Shown here one piece after another: positions 16,240 through 26,561 of a stretch of 64,000 nt of DNA. Position numbers and translations under genes: made by a program. Numbering within the stretch: position 1 is the first letter of the stretch; each line of letters opens with the position of its first letter. This stretch comes from Aliiroseovarius sp. M344. Its GTDB lineage: Bacteria; Pseudomonadota; Alphaproteobacteria; Rhodobacterales; Rhodobacteraceae. The stretch lies in NCBI RefSeq assembly GCF_025140835.1, contig NZ_CP081153.1, forward strand, positions 1,984,001 through 2,048,000. The letters run 5' to 3'. The notes beneath the pieces are model-generated. The model did no database searches. It saw only the letters and a list, made by a program, of their open reading frames with translations, and was not told the origin of the DNA.

Positions 16240-16722
16240 ATGGCACAACGTGAATGGCTCCCCAAGATGTGGGGTGACTGGGGTGAAGACAAAGACAGCC
16301 CGTTTCACGCCCTTCGTAAGCAAGTGGATACGTTGTTTGACGATTTTGACAGCGGTTTTCCGATCCGCAGTGGTGATTTCACTGTGCGCACGAACGTCAG
16401 CGAAACTGACGGCGAAGTCTGTATCACCGCAGAGCTTCCCGGCATCGAGATGAGCGACGTCGACGTCGAGATAGCTGGTGACAAGATCACCATCAGAGGT
16501 GAAAAAAAATCCGAAAAGGACGACCAGAGCGAAAAGGATGGCCGGACGTTCCACCGTATCGAAAGAAGCGCCGGGTCGTTTATGCGTACGACACGGCTGC
16601 CGTTCGACATAGACCCCGACAAGGTAGCTGCCGGCGTAAAGAATGGCGTCCTGACGGTAACCATTCCCAAACCGGCTGAGGAACAAACGAAAACCCGGAA
16701 AATCGAGATTAATGAAGGCTGA
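16240..16722 (+). CDS. Hsp20/alpha-crystallin small heat shock protein
   Basis: 160 residues. ATP-independent chaperone that holds unfolding proteins in the cytoplasm. The alpha-crystallin domain spans about 45-150: VSETDGEVCITAELPGIEM starts it, and the conserved A-x-x-x-G-V-L-T-V motif is present as AAGVKNGVLTVTIPK near 131-145, followed by a short C-terminal tail. GAGGAG lies 8 bases before the ATG. A strong terminator follows at 16743. Control by RpoH (encoded at 43.2 kb) is expected for the family, but no convincing heat-shock promoter was found in the 279-base upstream gap. Confidence 0.93.
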   Translation: MAQREWLPKMWGDWGEDKDSPFHALRKQVDTLFDDFDSGFPIRSGDFTVRTNVSETDGEVCITAELPGIEMSDVDVEIAGDKITIRGEKKSEKDDQSEKDGRTFHRIERSAGSFMRTTRLPFDIDPDKVAAGVKNGVLTVTIPKPAEEQTKTRKIEINEG

Positions 16723-16742: not shown

Positions 16743-16764
16743 CTCGGGCCTTCAAAGGCCCGAG
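16743..16764 (+). terminator. Rho-independent terminator after hsp20
   Basis: CTCGGGCCT-TCAA-AGGCCCGAG, a 9-base perfect stem with a tetraloop, followed by ACGTATTTATCT, a broken T-rich stretch. It lies 21 bases after the hsp20 stop. It could also act on the minus-strand acuI transcript, although it lies 135 bases beyond that stop. Confidence 0.8.
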
Positions 16765-16898: not shown

Positions 16899-17891
16899 CT
16901 AGGCATTGACGTCCACGACAACCCGGCCCTTGACCTTTCCCTGCAGAATATTGGCCCCCAGGCCGGGAAGGTCCTCCAGTGTCGCAGGCGTGATCATCGC
17001 CTCGAGCTTGTCCATCGGCAGGTCTTTTGCAACGCGCTGCCAAGCTCGCACGCGGTTGTCATAAGGCTGCATGACGCTATCAATGCCCAAAAGGTTCACA
17101 CCACGCAAAAGGAACGGGATGACGGTTGCAGGCAGACCAGCGCCACCGGCCAATCCGACCGCCGACACGGAAGCTCCGTATTTCATCTGGCCCAACACAC
17201 GCGCCAGCATGTCACCGCCGACAGCATCCACACAACCGGCCCATGTTTCGGCTTCAAGCGGGCGTTTGGTGGTCTCGTTCAGCTCTTCACGCGGCACAAT
17301 GGTGGTCGCGCCCAAAGATTTCAGGTAATCCACCTGATTGGGGCGGCCCGTGACAGCGGCGACTTCATAGCCAAGATTGGCCAGAATGGCAGTCGCAACG
17401 GACCCAACGCCCCCGGCAGCGCCAGTAACCAAAACAGGCCCCTGACCCGGCTTCAACCCGTGGTCTTCCAGCGCCATGACAGCCAGCATCGCCGTAAACC
17501 CTGCTGTGCCGACGGCCATAGCCTGACGTGTTGTCAAACCTTCTGGCAGCGGCACCAGCTTGTCTGCTGAAATACGCGCTTTCTGGGCATAGCCGCCCCA
17601 GGTCGCTTCACCCACACGCCAGCCGGTCAGAACGACTTTGTCACCGGGCTTGTAACGATCGTCATCCGACGCCTCGACCGTGCCCGCATAATCAATCCCC
17701 GGCACGTGGGGGTAATTGCGTACAAGCCCGCCACCCTTCGCCGACAAGCAGAGACCGTCTTTGTAGTTCACGGTGGAATATTCGACGGCAACGGTCACAT
17801 TGCCCTCGGGCAGCGTGTCTTCCCCGATCTCTTTGATCTCGGCTGCGGCCAGCCCCTCGTCGTTTTGTTCCATCACCAATGCTTTGAACAT
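16899..17891 (-). CDS. acuI: Acryloyl-CoA reductase (NADPH), AcuI
   Basis: 330 residues, medium-chain dehydrogenase of the zinc-free YhdH/AcuI branch. Reduces toxic acryloyl-CoA to propionyl-CoA with NADPH during use of DMSP or its demethylated product. Visible: EYSTVNYKDGL and PGIDYAGTVE at the N-terminus, and the NADPH loop TGAAGGVGSVA at about 159-169. Its start lies 9 bases after the dmdA stop, the same dmdA-acuI order seen in Ruegeria pomeroyi. On sequence alone a general MDR quinone reductase is possible; the context makes AcuI far more likely. Confidence 0.92.
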   Translation of the reverse strand: MFKALVMEQNDEGLAAAEIKEIGEDTLPEGNVTVAVEYSTVNYKDGLCLSAKGGGLVRNYPHVPGIDYAGTVEASDDDRYKPGDKVVLTGWRVGEATWGGYAQKARISADKLVPLPEGLTTRQAMAVGTAGFTAMLAVMALEDHGLKPGQGPVLVTGAAGGVGSVATAILANLGYEVAAVTGRPNQVDYLKSLGATTIVPREELNETTKRPLEAETWAGCVDAVGGDMLARVLGQMKYGASVSAVGLAGGAGLPATVIPFLLRGVNLLGIDSVMQPYDNRVRAWQRVAKDLPMDKLEAMITPATLEDLPGLGANILQGKVKGRVVVDVNA

Positions 17892-17900
17892 CGTCGTCTC

Positions 17901-19001
17901 CTAAATCCAAAAAGTGTCATAGACGGTCGCGGCCCGCGGTCCGTCGGGTGTCACCACATCCAGCTCAGTGCCCGCAGCCCAATGGGTCATGCGCACCATG
18001 CCGATGGCGACACCGGTGTTGAAATCGGGCGAGTTGGCGGCCGAAGTCACCTGCCCCACTTGCCGGTCCCCATCCATCAATGGCCACGCGCGGTCGCAAG
18101 GCGGCACGCCGCCCAATATCTCGATGGCGCGCACCTGTTGCACCGGACCTTCCTTGGCCACCCGGAGCAACGCGTCGCGCCCCACACAGCCAATCGCGCT
18201 TTCGGTTGAACAGAAGCGCCCCAGTCCCGCCTCGTGTGGGGTGTTTTCGCGGGTCATGTCGTTGCCATAGCTTAGAAGCCCGCCTTCGACCCGCTCGATC
18301 CCATTGGGGCAGCCTGCATGTACATCCATGCTTTTGCCTGCCTCCATCAGTGCGTTCCACAGCGGCATGCCGATGTCACTGCCCTCGACATAAATCTCGA
18401 ACCCGCCCTGCTTGGAATAGCCCGAGCGCGCCACAACCAGACTGCGCCCCTGGAACTCCAGCCGCTTATAGCGGAAGAACCGGATATCGCGCACCGCATC
18501 GCCAAAGACAGCGGCCGCCAGATCGTCCGATTTGGGACCCTGAATGGCCAAAGGGGACACGTCGGGCTCATCGACCAGCACATCCAGCCGGAACCCATAG
18601 GCCAGCCCTTTGACCCAGAACAGCAGATCACTGTCAGCGATCGAGATCCAGAACCGGTCCTCGGCCAGCTTCACCGCCACAGGGTCGTTCAGCATGCCCC
18701 CGGTCTCGTCGACCATGGGGACATAGAAACACTGCCCGTCCTGCATCTTGCTCAAATCCCGCGGGGTCAGCATCTGGATCAGGCGGGCGGCGTCGGGGCC
18801 ACGCACCTCGACCTGTCGCTCGCAGGCCACGTCCCAGACCTGTACCGCGTCCTTCAGGTGGCGATAGTCTTCTTCCACCGACCGAAAGACGGTCGGCAGC
18901 AGCATATGGTTATAAACTGTGTAGCCCTTCACCCCTGCGGCTTCGACACCGGCAGAGAAAGGTGTGCGCCGCAAGCGGCGGGACGGAGAAATCTTGGCCA
19001 T
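17901..19001 (-). CDS. dmdA: Dimethylsulfoniopropionate demethylase DmdA
   Basis: 366 residues from ATG 19001 (MAKISPSRRLRRTPF), with GGGAG upstream; an in-frame extension to 19055 is rejected. It transfers a methyl group from DMSP to tetrahydrofolate, giving methylmercaptopropionate and 5-methyl-THF. Glycine-cleavage T-protein fold; features of DmdA rather than GcvT are YTVYNHMLLPTVFRSVEEDY, MLNDPVAVKLAED, SIADSDLLFWVKGL and SYGNDMTRENTPHE. It lies between a DUF1326 gene (32 bases upstream) and acuI (9 bases downstream), so it is read as part of one operon controlled from the GntR-flanked promoter at 20.5 kb. Confidence 0.93.
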   Translation of the reverse strand: MAKISPSRRLRRTPFSAGVEAAGVKGYTVYNHMLLPTVFRSVEEDYRHLKDAVQVWDVACERQVEVRGPDAARLIQMLTPRDLSKMQDGQCFYVPMVDETGGMLNDPVAVKLAEDRFWISIADSDLLFWVKGLAYGFRLDVLVDEPDVSPLAIQGPKSDDLAAAVFGDAVRDIRFFRYKRLEFQGRSLVVARSGYSKQGGFEIYVEGSDIGMPLWNALMEAGKSMDVHAGCPNGIERVEGGLLSYGNDMTRENTPHEAGLGRFCSTESAIGCVGRDALLRVAKEGPVQQVRAIEILGGVPPCDRAWPLMDGDRQVGQVTSAANSPDFNTGVAIGMVRMTHWAAGTELDVVTPDGPRAATVYDTFWI

Positions 19002-19033
19002 GGGTCGCGCTCCCGTAGGGTCCACCGGCCGCG

Positions 19034-19666
19034 TTAGCGACCGGGGCCTTTCCAATCGATTTGGCAGATTTCAGCGGATTTTCCGTCGAAGTCCCATACA
19101 CGGCCAAAAGCACGCACCTTCGCCACATTGGCCTTGGCAACGGTGATGTCCGGACCCATCCAGTAATTGGTGTTGGTGATCACCTGATCGGCGCCGCCTT
19201 TACCGGGGACGGGTTCGATCTCGCCTTTGATCGCTTTGCCAACCATAAGACGACGCTTGTTGCCTTCAGTCTCGAAGGTCACAGGCGCACGTTCGGCACC
19301 AAGGAATTCGCTGACCAACATCTTAAACAATCCAGTGGTGCCTTTGGCAGCGCCTGTGAAGATGTGGCACAGCGCTTCAAACGCGGCATCATTAGCGCGC
19401 TCGTCGATGTAAGCGGCGGCTTTCCAGTTGCCGCGCCCCATCCGGCCGGGGATTTCCAACAGCAAACCGACATTCAGACCCGACAGGTCCTCGCCGCCAT
19501 AGTTGCCTTCGTCAATGCGGATGCCCGCCCAGCCCATGCAATAGCCCTCGGTCGGGGGGTGGTCGCCAAGGCTGACTACGCAGGGACAAAAGACCGTGCA
19601 GTTACAGTTGAGGATCAATTCCCCTTTGATGGCCCATTCGACCTGACCAATTTCACTTCCGTCCAT
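19034..19666 (-). CDS. DUF1326 protein with N-terminal cysteine cluster
   Basis: 210 residues from ATG 19666, with GGGAGGA 5 bases upstream. DUF1326 has no established function. A cluster of cysteines sits near the N-terminus (C21, C23, C27, C29 in NCNCTVFCPC, and C43), which suggests metal binding or redox chemistry. No signal peptide. The upstream DUF2182 membrane gene ends one base before this start, so the two are translated together; DUF1326/DUF2182 pairs are common. It lies directly ahead of dmdA. Its role in DMSP metabolism is untested and is only suggested by shared transcription. Confidence 0.85.
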   Translation of the reverse strand: MDGSEIGQVEWAIKGELILNCNCTVFCPCVVSLGDHPPTEGYCMGWAGIRIDEGNYGGEDLSGLNVGLLLEIPGRMGRGNWKAAAYIDERANDAAFEALCHIFTGAAKGTTGLFKMLVSEFLGAERAPVTFETEGNKRRLMVGKAIKGEIEPVPGKGGADQVITNTNYWMGPDITVAKANVAKVRAFGRVWDFDGKSAEICQIDWKGPGR

Positions 19667-19667
19667 G

Positions 19668-20447
19668 TTATCCTCCCTGGACAAGTGCCACGACCCCGCC
19701 CGCAATCAGCGCCCAGCCCAGTGGGCGGGTCAGATAGCGGCCAAGCTCCGGCAGTTTTTCAAAAATCATGATGAGTGTGGCGAGCCCCATGAAGGCGAGG
19801 TTCATCACCCCACCGACAAAGCCCAAAAGCATCAGCGCCCAGCAACAGCCAAGGCAGATCGCGCCCAAGCGCAGACCAAGGGCTGCGTCGTTCCAACGGG
19901 TCTCGCGCCAGTATTGCATGAAGAACGCCATCGGCTGGCGGCACTGGCTCAGGCAGCTGTCTTTGAGGGACGAGAATTGATACGCCCCGGCCCCGATCAA
20001 CAGCGCACCGGTCAGCCATGGCGAGATGCTTTGCCCCAAAGGCGACAGAAGCCCCGCGCGAAACAGAACCAGTTGCCCGGCGGCGGCGATGGCGGCAAAG
20101 CCCAGCCAGATGACCAGATAACCCGCGATCAGTTCCAGAAACCCGCGCCGGGACCCTGCGCCCGAGGCGATCAGATCGTCATAGGTGGCGAAGGTTGGCA
20201 GCGCGGTCGGGGCCATCATCGCGGCCGACATCACCGCCCACATGGCAAACAGCCCCAGAAACCCCGCCTTGTCTGGTTCAACCACACAAAGCGAGCGCCA
20301 GAAATCTGCCCCGTAGATGCGTGAGAGTTCCAGAGCATTGGGCGGCAGCGCCATCGCGTAAAGCAGAACCCAGCCCACAAGGATCAGGCCAAACAGCGCC
20401 AGCCAATGCGGCGCGCTCATGGTTCTTATCCTTGACGAAACGGACAT
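19668..20447 (-). CDS. DUF2182 multi-spanning membrane protein (predicted metal-binding)
   Basis: 259 residues from ATG 20447 with GGGGGA 3 bases upstream; a second ATG at 20420 is possible. Six or seven hydrophobic segments place it in the inner membrane. Paired cysteines near or in membrane segments, CLSQC at about 167-171 and GCCWALML near 200, fit the metal-binding prediction for DUF2182. First gene of a run DUF2182-DUF1326-dmdA-acuI. Its promoter region is shared with the divergent gntR gene and contains two TGTCNGACA sites. Function unknown. Confidence 0.85.
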   Translation of the reverse strand: MSVSSRIRTMSAPHWLALFGLILVGWVLLYAMALPPNALELSRIYGADFWRSLCVVEPDKAGFLGLFAMWAVMSAAMMAPTALPTFATYDDLIASGAGSRRGFLELIAGYLVIWLGFAAIAAAGQLVLFRAGLLSPLGQSISPWLTGALLIGAGAYQFSSLKDSCLSQCRQPMAFFMQYWRETRWNDAALGLRLGAICLGCCWALMLLGFVGGVMNLAFMGLATLIMIFEKLPELGRYLTRPLGWALIAGGVVALVQGG

Positions 20448-20476: not shown

Positions 20477-20520
20477 AATGTCTGACAATTGACCGAGGGG
20501 CAAGTAATTGTCAGACAATT
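20477..20520. promoter_or_regulatory. Two GntR-type operators, TGTCNGACA, 30 bases apart
   Basis: The palindromic core TGTCTGACA (20479-20487) recurs as TGTCAGACA (20509-20517). The second copy sits in a 15-base perfect dyad, AATTGTC-A-GACAATT at 20506-20520. The spacing of 30 bases between centres is about three helical turns, suited to co-operative binding on one face. Both lie in the 88-base gap between the DUF2182 and gntR start codons. The likely binder is the adjacent GntR/FCD regulator, acting on both its own gene and the dmdA operon. Confidence 0.8.
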
Positions 20521-20535
20521 GAGGAGTGACGTAGC

Positions 20536-21267
20536 GTGAAAACCGATTTGGACGACAATCAGGACCTGTCAAAGCAGATCGCCGAAGCCATTCGCGACGC
20601 GATTATTGAGGGTGGCTTGATCGTCGACCAACGCCTGCCATCCGAGGCGGATCTATGCGAGAAATTCGACGTGGGCCGGTCAACCGTGCGCGAGGCGCTG
20701 AAGCGCTTGGCCGCCCAGAACCTGATCCGCACCCAACGGGGCGCGTCCGGCGGGGCCTTCGTGAACCGCATGTCCTTTGAAGAAGCCTATGATCAGCAGA
20801 TTACCACCTCGACCCTGCTTTTGTCGATGAACCAGGTGGATTTTGAGACCGCATGCGAGGCGCGCTATGCGTTGGAACGTGCCTGCGCGCCACTTTCGGC
20901 AGAACGGCGGACGGCTGACCATCTGGCCACCATGCGCGCCGAGGTTCACAGACAAAGCCAGCCCGGCCTGACGGACGAAGCCTTTTGCGCCTCGGACGTG
21001 GCCTTTCACCGGGCACTGGTCGACGGGGCGGGCAATCCGGTGCTGTCCTACCAACTGGCAGGGGCTGTCGAGGCGATGCAGCCGCTGATGAACATGATCA
21101 CCTACACGCAAAGGGATCGGGACCGGATCGTAGAGCTTCACACCCGGCTGGCGGATGCCATTGAGGGTCAGGATGGTCCGAAGGCCGAAGCCAGTCTGGG
21201 ACAATTGGCAGAATATACGGTTGAACTTGGCCGCAGTCGGTTGACCCAATCCAAAACCCGCAGCTAG
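20536..21267 (+). CDS. GntR/FadR-family (FCD) transcriptional regulator
   Basis: 243 residues from GTG 20536, with GAGGAG 9 bases upstream. N-terminal winged helix (about 10-75; RLPSEADLCEKFDVGRSTVREALKRL is split here by helix) and a C-terminal FCD effector domain (about 90-225), with the metal-type DVAFHRAL (Asp-x3-His) segment and later His residues. It is divergent from the DUF2182-DUF1326-dmdA-acuI operon and has two matching operators between them. Inference: autoregulated repressor of DMSP demethylation genes. The effector is unknown; acryloyl-CoA-related or DMSP-related acids are candidates. A dead second copy of its C-terminal half lies at 22.5 kb. Confidence 0.92.
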   Translation: MKTDLDDNQDLSKQIAEAIRDAIIEGGLIVDQRLPSEADLCEKFDVGRSTVREALKRLAAQNLIRTQRGASGGAFVNRMSFEEAYDQQITTSTLLLSMNQVDFETACEARYALERACAPLSAERRTADHLATMRAEVHRQSQPGLTDEAFCASDVAFHRALVDGAGNPVLSYQLAGAVEAMQPLMNMITYTQRDRDRIVELHTRLADAIEGQDGPKAEASLGQLAEYTVELGRSRLTQSKTRS

Positions 21268-24340: not shown

Positions 24341-24483
24341 TCGGCTGCATCGCTTTCACGCGCGCTCTTGACCGCGGCCCCCAGGCTCTGGCACTTATTA
24401 TGCATGGGGTCAGCGACACCACCCCGTGAGGCTAAGGCTTGAGGTTCGCATCCATCGCCACGCTGATTGAAGGATGCCAAGCC

Positions 24484-25299
24484 ATGCCTGCTTTTTCCGA
24501 AATTTTGCCCGCTCAACTGATGCGTCTTATCGGCACGCCTGACGCGCCGATCTTGATCGATGTCTCAATCGACGCAGACTTTGACGCGGACCCGTACCTT
24601 ATTCCCGGTGCCTGTCGCCAACCTCACACAGATATTCGGGCACTCTTGCCTGACGTGTCTGGCCGATCGGTTGTCACTGTTTGCCAAAAAGGCGGCAAAC
24701 TCAGCCACGGTGCCGCAGCGCTGCTGCGCAACGAGGGTGTCCATGCCGAGGCGCTGGCCGGCGGCAATTTCGCCTGGCGAGACGCCAAATTTCCTCGTAT
24801 CCCTGCGGCTTCTCTGCCGGAGCCCGTCGATGGCGCGACGCTTTGGGTGACCCGCCACCGTCCCAAGATTGACCGCATCGCTTGTCCTTGGCTCATTCGC
24901 CGATTTGTTGATCCCGCCGCGCGTTTCCTTTTTGTGCCGCCTGCGCAGGTTCTCGATGTGGCAAACCGCTACGGCGCGACGCCATTTGACGTAGAAAAAG
25001 CTTTCTGGTCGCATCGCGGCGCGCGCTGCAGTTTTGATACGATGGTCGAGGAATTCGCGCTGACAACCCCGGCACTTACGCGGCTTGCTAAGGTCGTACG
25101 GGCCGCCGACACCAATACGCTTGGCGATATCCCCGAAGCCGCGGGGCTTCTGGCCATTTCCGTCGGTCTGTCACGCCAATACAAGGACGACACTGCGCAG
25201 CTTGAGGCGGCGCTTCCCTTATATGACGCGTTTTATCGTTGGGCCCGCGACGGTGCGGATGAAACCCATGACTGGCCCGACAATCGAGGCGTTAAATGA
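24484..25299 (+). CDS. chrB: ChrB-type chromate resistance protein with N-terminal rhodanese domain
   Basis: 271 residues from ATG 24484 (MPAFSEIL); GAAGGA lies about 10 bases upstream. Residues 1-105 are a rhodanese-like domain with active Cys in VTVCQKGGKLSHG. Residues 115-271 match the ChrB C-terminal domain, beginning LWVTRHRPKIDRIACPWLIRRF, with D and H residues suitable for metal binding. Its stop overlaps the chrA start by 4 bases, so the two are translationally coupled. In other systems ChrB acts as a chromate-responsive regulator or accessory factor of ChrA. The rhodanese fusion suggests a sulfur or oxyanion chemistry step, which is inference. Confidence 0.85.
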   Translation: MPAFSEILPAQLMRLIGTPDAPILIDVSIDADFDADPYLIPGACRQPHTDIRALLPDVSGRSVVTVCQKGGKLSHGAAALLRNEGVHAEALAGGNFAWRDAKFPRIPAASLPEPVDGATLWVTRHRPKIDRIACPWLIRRFVDPAARFLFVPPAQVLDVANRYGATPFDVEKAFWSHRGARCSFDTMVEEFALTTPALTRLAKVVRAADTNTLGDIPEAAGLLAISVGLSRQYKDDTAQLEAALPLYDAFYRWARDGADETHDWPDNRGVK

Positions 25300-26561
25300 C
25301 CGCGCCCAGTCTTGGCGAATTGACCCGTGTCTTCACCCGCATCGGGCTTTTTTCATTCGGCGGACCAGCCGCCCAAATCGCTGTCATGCACAAGGAATTG
25401 GTTGAGGACCGACCGTGGCTGGATGAAAGCCAGTTTCTAAGCGCGCTGTCGTTTTGCATGCTTTTGCCCGGCCCCGAGGCGATGCAACTGTGCACCTATG
25501 CTGGATGGCGTCTGCGCGGCGTTCATGGCGGGCTTATCGCCGGGCTTTTGTTCGTTCTGCCGGGGGCTGCGGTTATGCTGGCCTTGGCCTTCGCCTATGC
25601 CCTTTGGGGACAGCTTCCGGTGGTCGAGGCGTTGTTTCTGGGGGTGCAAGCCACGGTGGTGATCGTGGTGGCGCAGGCGGTTTTGCGTTTGGCACGGAAG
25701 ACATTGAATCGCACGGATCATTGGCTGATCGCGCTCGCCTCTTTCATGGCGCTTTATGCTTTTGACGCCCCTTTCCCCTTGGTGATCCTGATCGCCGCTG
25801 CCTATGGATTGTTGTTCCATGCTTCTAGAGGCGTTGAAGCACCGCCAGTTTCCGACCACCGAACCAGCCTGCGGCAAACCATTTCACGCGCCGCCGTCTG
25901 GCTGGCACTGTGGTTCACACCTATCTTGGTGGCCTATGCTTCCGGCGCTGCGATCCTCACAAAGATCGGCCTGTTTTTCTCAAAACTCGCTGTCGTCAGT
26001 TTTGGCGGCGCCTATGCGGTGCTGGCCTATATGGCGCAAGAAGCCGTCACCAACCATGGTTGGCTGACGCCTGAACAGATGCTGGACGGGTTGGGGTTGG
26101 CAGAAACCACACCCGGCCCACTGATCCTTGTGACGGAATTCGTCGGCTTTATGGCTGGTTATACGCTGTCCGGCCCGGGTTTGGCGCTGGCGGCCGCTGC
26201 GATGACCCTTTGGGCCACGTTCATCCCTTGCTTTCTGTGGATCTTTGTAGCGGCCCCCCATGTCGAATGGCTGACCACCCGCCCGCGCCTGACCTCGGCC
26301 CTTGCGGCCATCACGGCAGCCGTGGTGGGGGTCATCGCCAATCTGTCATTGTGGTTCGCGTTGCACGTTTTCTTCGACAAAGTGGCGCGCGCCGACGGCG
26401 CCTTCACACCAAGCCTGCCGGTCCTGTCCAGCGTGAATATTGTCGCCGTCGTGCTGGCTGGCGTGGCTGGGTTTTTGCTGTTGCGTCTGCGCGTGTCACT
26501 GCCGCTGACCCTGGCTGCTATGGCAACGGTCGGCGCCTGCCTTCCGATGCTCAGCCCTTAA
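25296..26561 (+). CDS. chrA: Chromate efflux transporter ChrA
   Basis: 421 residues, inner-membrane CHR family with two homologous halves. The first half starts at about 8 with FTRIGLFSFGGPAAQIAVM and the second at about 218 with FFSKLAVVSFGGAYAVLAYM. Both carry the conserved S-F-G-G segment, and the second has the LAETTPGPLILVTEFVGFM motif. It exports chromate, using the proton or membrane potential. It begins within the last codons of chrB (ATGA overlap). Sulfate-like oxyanion export is the alternative role proposed for some family members. Confidence 0.93.
   Translation: MTAPSLGELTRVFTRIGLFSFGGPAAQIAVMHKELVEDRPWLDESQFLSALSFCMLLPGPEAMQLCTYAGWRLRGVHGGLIAGLLFVLPGAAVMLALAFAYALWGQLPVVEALFLGVQATVVIVVAQAVLRLARKTLNRTDHWLIALASFMALYAFDAPFPLVILIAAAYGLLFHASRGVEAPPVSDHRTSLRQTISRAAVWLALWFTPILVAYASGAAILTKIGLFFSKLAVVSFGGAYAVLAYMAQEAVTNHGWLTPEQMLDGLGLAETTPGPLILVTEFVGFMAGYTLSGPGLALAAAAMTLWATFIPCFLWIFVAAPHVEWLTTRPRLTSALAAITAAVVGVIANLSLWFALHVFFDKVARADGAFTPSLPVLSSVNIVAVVLAGVAGFLLLRLRVSLPLTLAAMATVGACLPMLSP

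Follow-up and report, generated by a model that had tools for sequence, protein, structure and literature searches.

Demethylation of dimethylsulfoniopropionate (DMSP) is a major step in the sulphur cycle of the sea. The operon considered here, in which dmdA, the gene for DMSP demethylase, is followed by acuI, lies within a stretch of 64,000 nucleotides (the window) of the genome of Aliiroseovarius sp. M344 (contig NZ_CP081153.1, positions 1,984,001 to 2,048,000), and our subject is the pair of genes at its head, encoding a membrane protein of the PpoB2 family (formerly DUF2182) and a protein of the DUF1326 family. In Ruegeria pomeroyi DSS-3, dmdA likewise stands directly before acuI (SPO1913-SPO1914), and there both genes are inducible: they were up about 14-fold with 5 mM DMSP and 12-fold with acrylate on arrays, lacZ fusions agreed with the arrays, the induction by either compound spanning about 10- to 14-fold overall, and the fusions gave no response to methylmercaptopropionate (MMPA) (PMC3338564). 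The sections of that account drawn on here describe no PpoB2 or DUF1326 gene, whereas the window has both before dmdA, together with a divergently transcribed GntR gene.

A PpoB2 protein has been described in Marinomonas mediterranea (COG5486, PF09948), where a membrane protein of the same Pfam family, likewise encoded in an operon with an enzyme, transfers copper and serves one specific oxidase, a tyrosinase; the portions of the report used here (PMC2855505) mention no DUF1326 partner. The PpoB2 of the window, in contrast, is paired with DUF1326, heads dmdA-acuI, and has no known copper enzyme in its operon. A copper chaperone is linked to methanethiol metabolism also in the mtoX-SCO1-mauG clusters, but according to the parts of PMC5739008 consulted, those clusters use a chaperone of another family (SCO1/SenC), and the genome to which the window belongs has no match to SBP56, the family of the methanethiol oxidase MtoX. 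The literature we searched, in a search that was incomplete, nowhere describes the pair in the present operon.

A gene pair at the head of the dmdA-acuI operon

All four genes lie on the minus strand, in the order PpoB2 (259 amino acids, 20447-19668), DUF1326 (210 amino acids, 19666-19034), dmdA (19001-17901) and acuI (17891-16899), separated in turn by 1, 32 and 9 bases, and a GGAGG motif lies directly 5' of the DUF1326 start. The coordinates and profile matches thus bear out the arrangement described in an earlier note on this DNA, and the pair almost certainly belongs to the operon. PpoB2 matches PF09948 over positions 1-187 of the 188 in the profile (205 bits, cut-off 28.7), DUF1326 matches PF07040 (178 bits, cut-off 25), and the genome has one match for each. 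The dmdA product is well above the cut-off of the NCBIfam equivalog NF009133 (661 bits versus 410) and matches the PDB chain 3tfh with 356 bits. The name acuI is used for short, following literature usage for the gene after dmdA: its product passes the acrylyl-CoA reductase subfamily TIGR02823 (443 bits, cut-off 297) and aligns full length with PDB chains named AcuI (5gxf/5gxe, 576 bits), and falls slightly below the AcuI equivalog NF051456 (428 bits, cut-off 440), which is passed by a match in 14 of 149 genomes of the family.

The pair represents a distinct PpoB2-DUF1326 subfamily, specialised as an accessory to a GntR-flanked acuI/dmdA operon and found there mainly within a single family, the Rhodobacteraceae. 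That family was sampled with 149 genomes, one per genus, whose loci were read as stop-to-stop frames with profiles (those for the ligase and MtoX from two sequences each); G340 and other compared genomes are draft assemblies. Matches to PpoB2 occur in 82 genomes, to DUF1326 in 79, and to dmdA above cut-off in 64. A same-strand DUF1326 match lies within 1.5 kb of 90 of the 97 PpoB2 matches, 72 of them with PpoB2 first (type A) and 18 with DUF1326 first (type B). The label comes from gene order alone, and G036:C24 (L130) is counted as type A though DUF1326 lies on both sides and its PpoB2 falls among the type B rows in the tree. Of the 64 dmdA genomes, 48 have a type A pair upstream of dmdA, on its strand and no more than 6 kb away, which is more than chance would give, and type A pairs anywhere in the genome accompany dmdA in 53 of 64 genomes, as against 18 of the 85 that have no dmdA (Fisher p 4e-14, kinship ignored). 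Type B pairs do not track dmdA in the 149 genomes (Fisher p 0.79, kinship ignored).

The partner acuI, counted as present when a match exceeds 380 bits (a threshold of our own, passed in 124 genomes), is at least as constant as dmdA. Among the 72 type A pairs, 42 are near both dmdA and acuI, 16 have only acuI nearby, 6 only dmdA, and 8 neither of the two, which places 58 near acuI and 48 near dmdA; none of the 18 type B pairs is near either. The eight include the B-like G036:C24, two (G060, G030) whose contig ends shortly beyond the pair, and one (G004) with acuI close by on the opposite strand. Two of the genomes whose pair has acuI but no dmdA within 6 kb (G001, G128) have dmdA elsewhere. 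This constancy of acuI, the 16 loci with pair and acuI, and the loci in which GntR is followed by dmdA and acuI with no pair place the link with an acrylate/DMSP-type operon rather than with demethylation alone. The tie to the DMSP pathway proposed in the earlier note therefore stands in this broader form. One locus (L152:4817-8580, G014), in a genome with no dmdA above cut-off, has a shortened dmdA-like frame between acuI and DUF1326, pair and acuI being kept. In relatives, the space that separates DUF1326 from dmdA is empty or holds either a DinB-family gene of about 170 codons (PF05163 in one representative) or an acyl-CoA ligase gene of about 500 codons (NF006020 subfamily).

Beyond the family, a sample of the class comprised 337 genomes, 29 with dmdA above cut-off, of which 25 lie outside the family. 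Because only 2 of these 25 (G340 and G481) have the pair beside dmdA, the link is mainly a feature of one family, with a few transfers or old associations beyond it. The earlier note had allowed that such pairs might never accompany dmdA in related genomes; these two cases and the 48 within the family speak otherwise. The order in G340 (family f77, a small draft genome; L251) is PpoB2-DUF1326-dmdA-ligase, and in G481 (family f155; L252) GntR is followed by PpoB2-DUF1326-dmdA-ligase-acuI, amid different flanking genes. Three f37 genomes of one genus (L271-L273) carry PpoB2-DUF1326-ligase with neither acuI nor dmdA adjacent, and two small genomes with dmdA (G354, G444) gave no PpoB2 match.

A PpoB2 tree of 97 rows, made by a quick method, gathers 41 of 44 type A rows, L251, L252 and L271-L273 among them, into a single clade (Shimodaira-Hasegawa-like approximate likelihood ratio test, SH-aLRT, 96), along with L135, whose DUF1326 match was mis-scored. 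A same-strand gene for DmdA, AcuI, ligase or DinB, no more than 6 kb away, accompanies 38 of the 42 clade rows and none of the 55 outside it. No partner recurs at type B and lone loci: among the 55 neighbours scanned, each Pfam family turned up in 2 at most. The type A rows outside the clade are L137, on a long branch, L120 (Pseudolabrys) and L122 (Hyphomicrobiales). In the last two (L120:9824-14636, L122:9983-13959), PpoB2 and DUF1326 are followed by genes like those of short-chain dehydrogenases/reductases (SDR) and by a quinone-reductase-like gene.

The divergent GntR gene and the surroundings of the operon

A regulator gene of the GntR-FCD family (PF00392 and PF07729) lies at 20536-21267 on the plus strand, divergent from the operon, and a relative of it adjoins the operons of many related genomes. 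The region between it and PpoB2 contains two operator-like palindromes 30 bases apart, ATTGTCAGACATT on the minus strand (20477-20489) and a perfect one, ATTGTCWGACAAT (20507-20519). For comparison, 80 intergenic regions (GntR match of at least 300 bits, next gene within 600 bases) were collected together with that of the window, giving 71 distinct regions, many from close relatives, and sites were called when at least 9 of the 12 fixed bases of ATTGTCnGACAAT agreed, the middle base being free. Such a site occurs in all 71, but in just 1 of 71 after letter shuffling; two or more occur in 54, the exact core GTCnGAC in 63, and in 50 of the 54 the first two sites are spaced 15 or 30-34 bases apart. 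The sites persist where the first gene is dmdA (L044, L173, L177) or DinB (L036). Some loci with no pair read GntR-DinB-dmdA-acuI or GntR-dmdA-acuI (L170, L171, L177), and their intergenic regions still hold operator-like sites.

In the genome of the window, the pattern with at most one mismatch gives 24 rows, and the pattern reversed gives 6. Away from the operon just one site is perfect (C1:1153701); it sits inside a long coding frame (TRAP-transporter-like, judged by eye), and GntR therefore looks like a local regulator of this operon. By analogy it may bind the operator-like sites and respond to acrylate, and perhaps the same regulator acts in R. pomeroyi. The window's operon would most likely be induced when DMSP or acrylate is present, and a promoter shared by the pair and dmdA-acuI, as the earlier note supposed, is likely. 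It is the linkage within the family, the constancy of acuI, the single PpoB2 clade, the conserved sites and the induction seen in R. pomeroyi, taken together, that mark the pair as a specialised accessory of a DMSP/acrylate operon.

A terminator-like hairpin, found by pattern scan and readable on both strands, lies beyond acuI at 16743-16764, between the operon and a convergent small heat-shock-like gene (Hsp20-like by eye, window 16240-16722, plus strand). Flanking genes, scanned in one representative per cluster, recur across genera: on one side fumC, a chromate-transporter-like gene and GntR, and on the other a BCCT transporter, a cysteine-desulfurase-like gene, photolyase, cyclopropane-fatty-acid (CFA) synthase, TrgA and Nudix. 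Part of the linkage is therefore inherited synteny. In the window itself, ChrB-like and ChrA chromate-transport-like genes (by eye) lie at 24439-26561 on the plus strand, and a gene of the chromate transporter family is found near the operons of relatives too.

The two proteins and a possible metal or thiol role

The earlier note had considered DUF2182 a protein of unknown function. That description is out of date: Pfam now names PF09948 PpoB2, 'Copper chaperone', and the family thereby has a functional lead. An alignment of 26 PpoB2 sequences has invariant Met, Cys and Trp positions, with MxxxMM, CxxxC and CxxCC invariant throughout, and the predicted structure is all-helical (predicted local distance difference test, pLDDT, 86.7). 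By analogy with its relative in Marinomonas, the PpoB2 of the window may be a copper-transfer protein. In one subclade of the DMSP-linked clade, 15 of the 19 rows have in addition a Met-rich loop, with 7-11 Met among 42 residues, a count for which no chance expectation was computed and in which L279, with a mis-anchored loop, was disregarded.

DUF1326 has no signal sequence as judged by eye. Its cysteines C20, C22, C26, C28 and C42 (CxCxxxCPC and a fifth Cys) are invariant in all 27 aligned rows, and C.C...CPC followed by H[PA]PT occurs in 100 of 106 type A rows (103 with three variants accepted by eye) as against 1 of 49 others, the rows being non-identical and many of them from close relatives. 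One DUF1326-first pair (L224, G344) nonetheless has a DUF1326 with the SLGxHPPT signature of the DMSP-linked type. The model of the protein is a barrel like that of acetoacetate decarboxylase, and its matches are to that superfamily, at 6-11% identity in the first 12 rows. Acetoacetate decarboxylase works by Schiff-base chemistry. DUF1326 differs from the superfamily in its five invariant cysteines and in the want of an invariant lysine: none is invariant or nearly so in the 27 rows, and Schiff-base chemistry would therefore be unavailable to it.

The metal or thiol homeostasis proposed in the earlier note is a plausible role. According to the model we favour, a two-gene PpoB2-DUF1326 module was recruited into an operon with its local GntR regulator, to be switched on by DMSP or acrylate. 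The cytoplasmic five-cysteine barrel of DUF1326 would bind Cu(I), probably, or another soft metal, and would exchange it with the Met and Cys sites of PpoB2 in the membrane. In this way the pool of metal on cellular thiols might be kept in order during the breakdown of DMSP, when methanethiol would act as a metal ligand and acryloyl-CoA would use up thiols. That the pair handles soft metals or thiols during DMSP and acrylate breakdown has, in our estimate, somewhat less than an even chance of being right. The stricter version, a dedicated copper relay induced by the catabolites, in which a DUF1326 barrel of the acetoacetate decarboxylase type would serve in the cytoplasm as a Cu(I)-thiolate carrier, passing its metal on to PpoB2 and so guarding the metal and thiol economy, is conceivable but doubtful.

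Several observations weigh against this model. The fold matches of DUF1326 have TM-scores (template modelling scores) of only 0.41-0.47 for the top eight, and no structure in PDB resembles the PpoB2 model. The Met-rich loop is absent from all 22 rows of the subclade to which the relatives of the window belong; the window's own PpoB2 has, by eye, one Met in that region. No pair stands beside dmdA in 16 of the 64 dmdA genomes of the family; outside it, only 4 of the 25 have any PpoB2 (G340, G481, G410, G227), and but two of these have it as a pair next to dmdA. Much of the linkage reflects synteny passed on by descent, and the Fisher tests disregard kinship. Copper as the metal, the direction of its transfer and the purpose of the pair are inferred.

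Other readings and what the pair would mean

One alternative is cofactor delivery, in which a single cuproenzyme of the pathway would receive its copper from the pair; the foremost candidate would be an SBP56-family methanethiol oxidase. Marinomonas PpoB2, so far as PMC2855505 was drawn on, does serve a single oxidase, and MtoX, in the parts of PMC5739008 used, is a copper enzyme whose gene has MauG and, in many genomes, SCO1 genes as neighbours, and it is predicted to be periplasmic, a location at odds with a DUF1326 that has no evident signal sequence. SBP56 matches are found in 51 of the 149 family genomes. The strict set of 47 tracks dmdA (38 of 64 versus 9 of 85, p 3e-10, kinship ignored), and mtoX likewise co-occurs with the type A pair (37 of 71 versus 10 of 78, p 2e-7, kinship ignored). 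Among dmdA genomes, however, mtoX is found in 33 of the 53 that have a type A pair and in 5 of the 11 that lack one (p 0.33), and dmdA may therefore account for the overall correlation. In Marinovum algicola (L095:9986-16586) the SBP56 gene is sixth in a same-strand row, PpoB2-DUF1326-ligase-dmdA-acuI-SBP56; in G066 it follows the dmdA match by about 70 bases, and in G043 it adjoins GntR. Yet the L095 and G066 proteins score 104 and 109 bits against an NCBIfam MtoX cut-off of 650, and that of L095, being so far below it, perhaps belongs to another subgroup. A strong MtoX match occurs in G136 (L253:7644-10242), in a same-strand row with a diverged lone PpoB2, lacking DUF1326, and a small ferredoxin-like gene. 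That row adjoins genes like those of formaldehyde metabolism and of the sulfur-dioxygenase type, and its PpoB2 might act as copper chaperone to MtoX. As a general answer, delivery to methanethiol oxidase fails, since the genome of the window has no SBP56 (PF05694) match, and delivery to any one cuproenzyme of the pathway is unlikely.

Quite unlikely, too, is that DUF1326 is itself an enzyme, a barrel like that of acetoacetate decarboxylase with a cysteine-metal site, supplied with metal by PpoB2 and acting on a C3 acyl, thiol or malonate-semialdehyde-type intermediate; the likeness of fold invites the idea, but the absence of a conserved lysine from the alignment argues against it, as does the presence of DUF1326 in genomes that have no dmdA. 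The 16 loci that keep pair and acuI with no dmdA nearby, the DinB gene near 16 of the 42 clade rows and the company of SDR-like and quinone-reductase-like genes at L120 and L122 could instead suggest a module against electrophile and thiol stress, in which the pair, DinB and acuI protect against acrylate and acryloyl-CoA and demethylation is incidental. This idea overlaps with soft-metal and thiol handling, rests on gene neighbourhoods, and sits poorly with the three f37 genomes, where pair and ligase have neither acuI nor dmdA adjacent; we regard it as improbable. More improbable still is that the pair is a passenger, kept in a conserved chromosomal neighbourhood with no functional link to its neighbours. 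The neighbourhood is indeed common to several genera, and dmdA has no pair beside it in 16 of the family's 64 dmdA genomes and in 23 of the 25 from elsewhere, but the same gene order recurs amid different flanking genes in other families (L251, L252, L271-L273), a single PpoB2 clade is tied to DMSP/acrylate gene context, and the operator-like sites remain when the first gene differs.

Within the family, 48 of the 64 sampled genera with dmdA thus have two extra genes leading the well-studied dmdA-acuI operon, genes that form a distinct subfamily and are probably under the same operator as dmdA and acuI. If they do handle copper or thiols, then a role for DUF1326 would follow, and the supply of copper and the fate of DMSP in seawater would be tied together at the level of genes.

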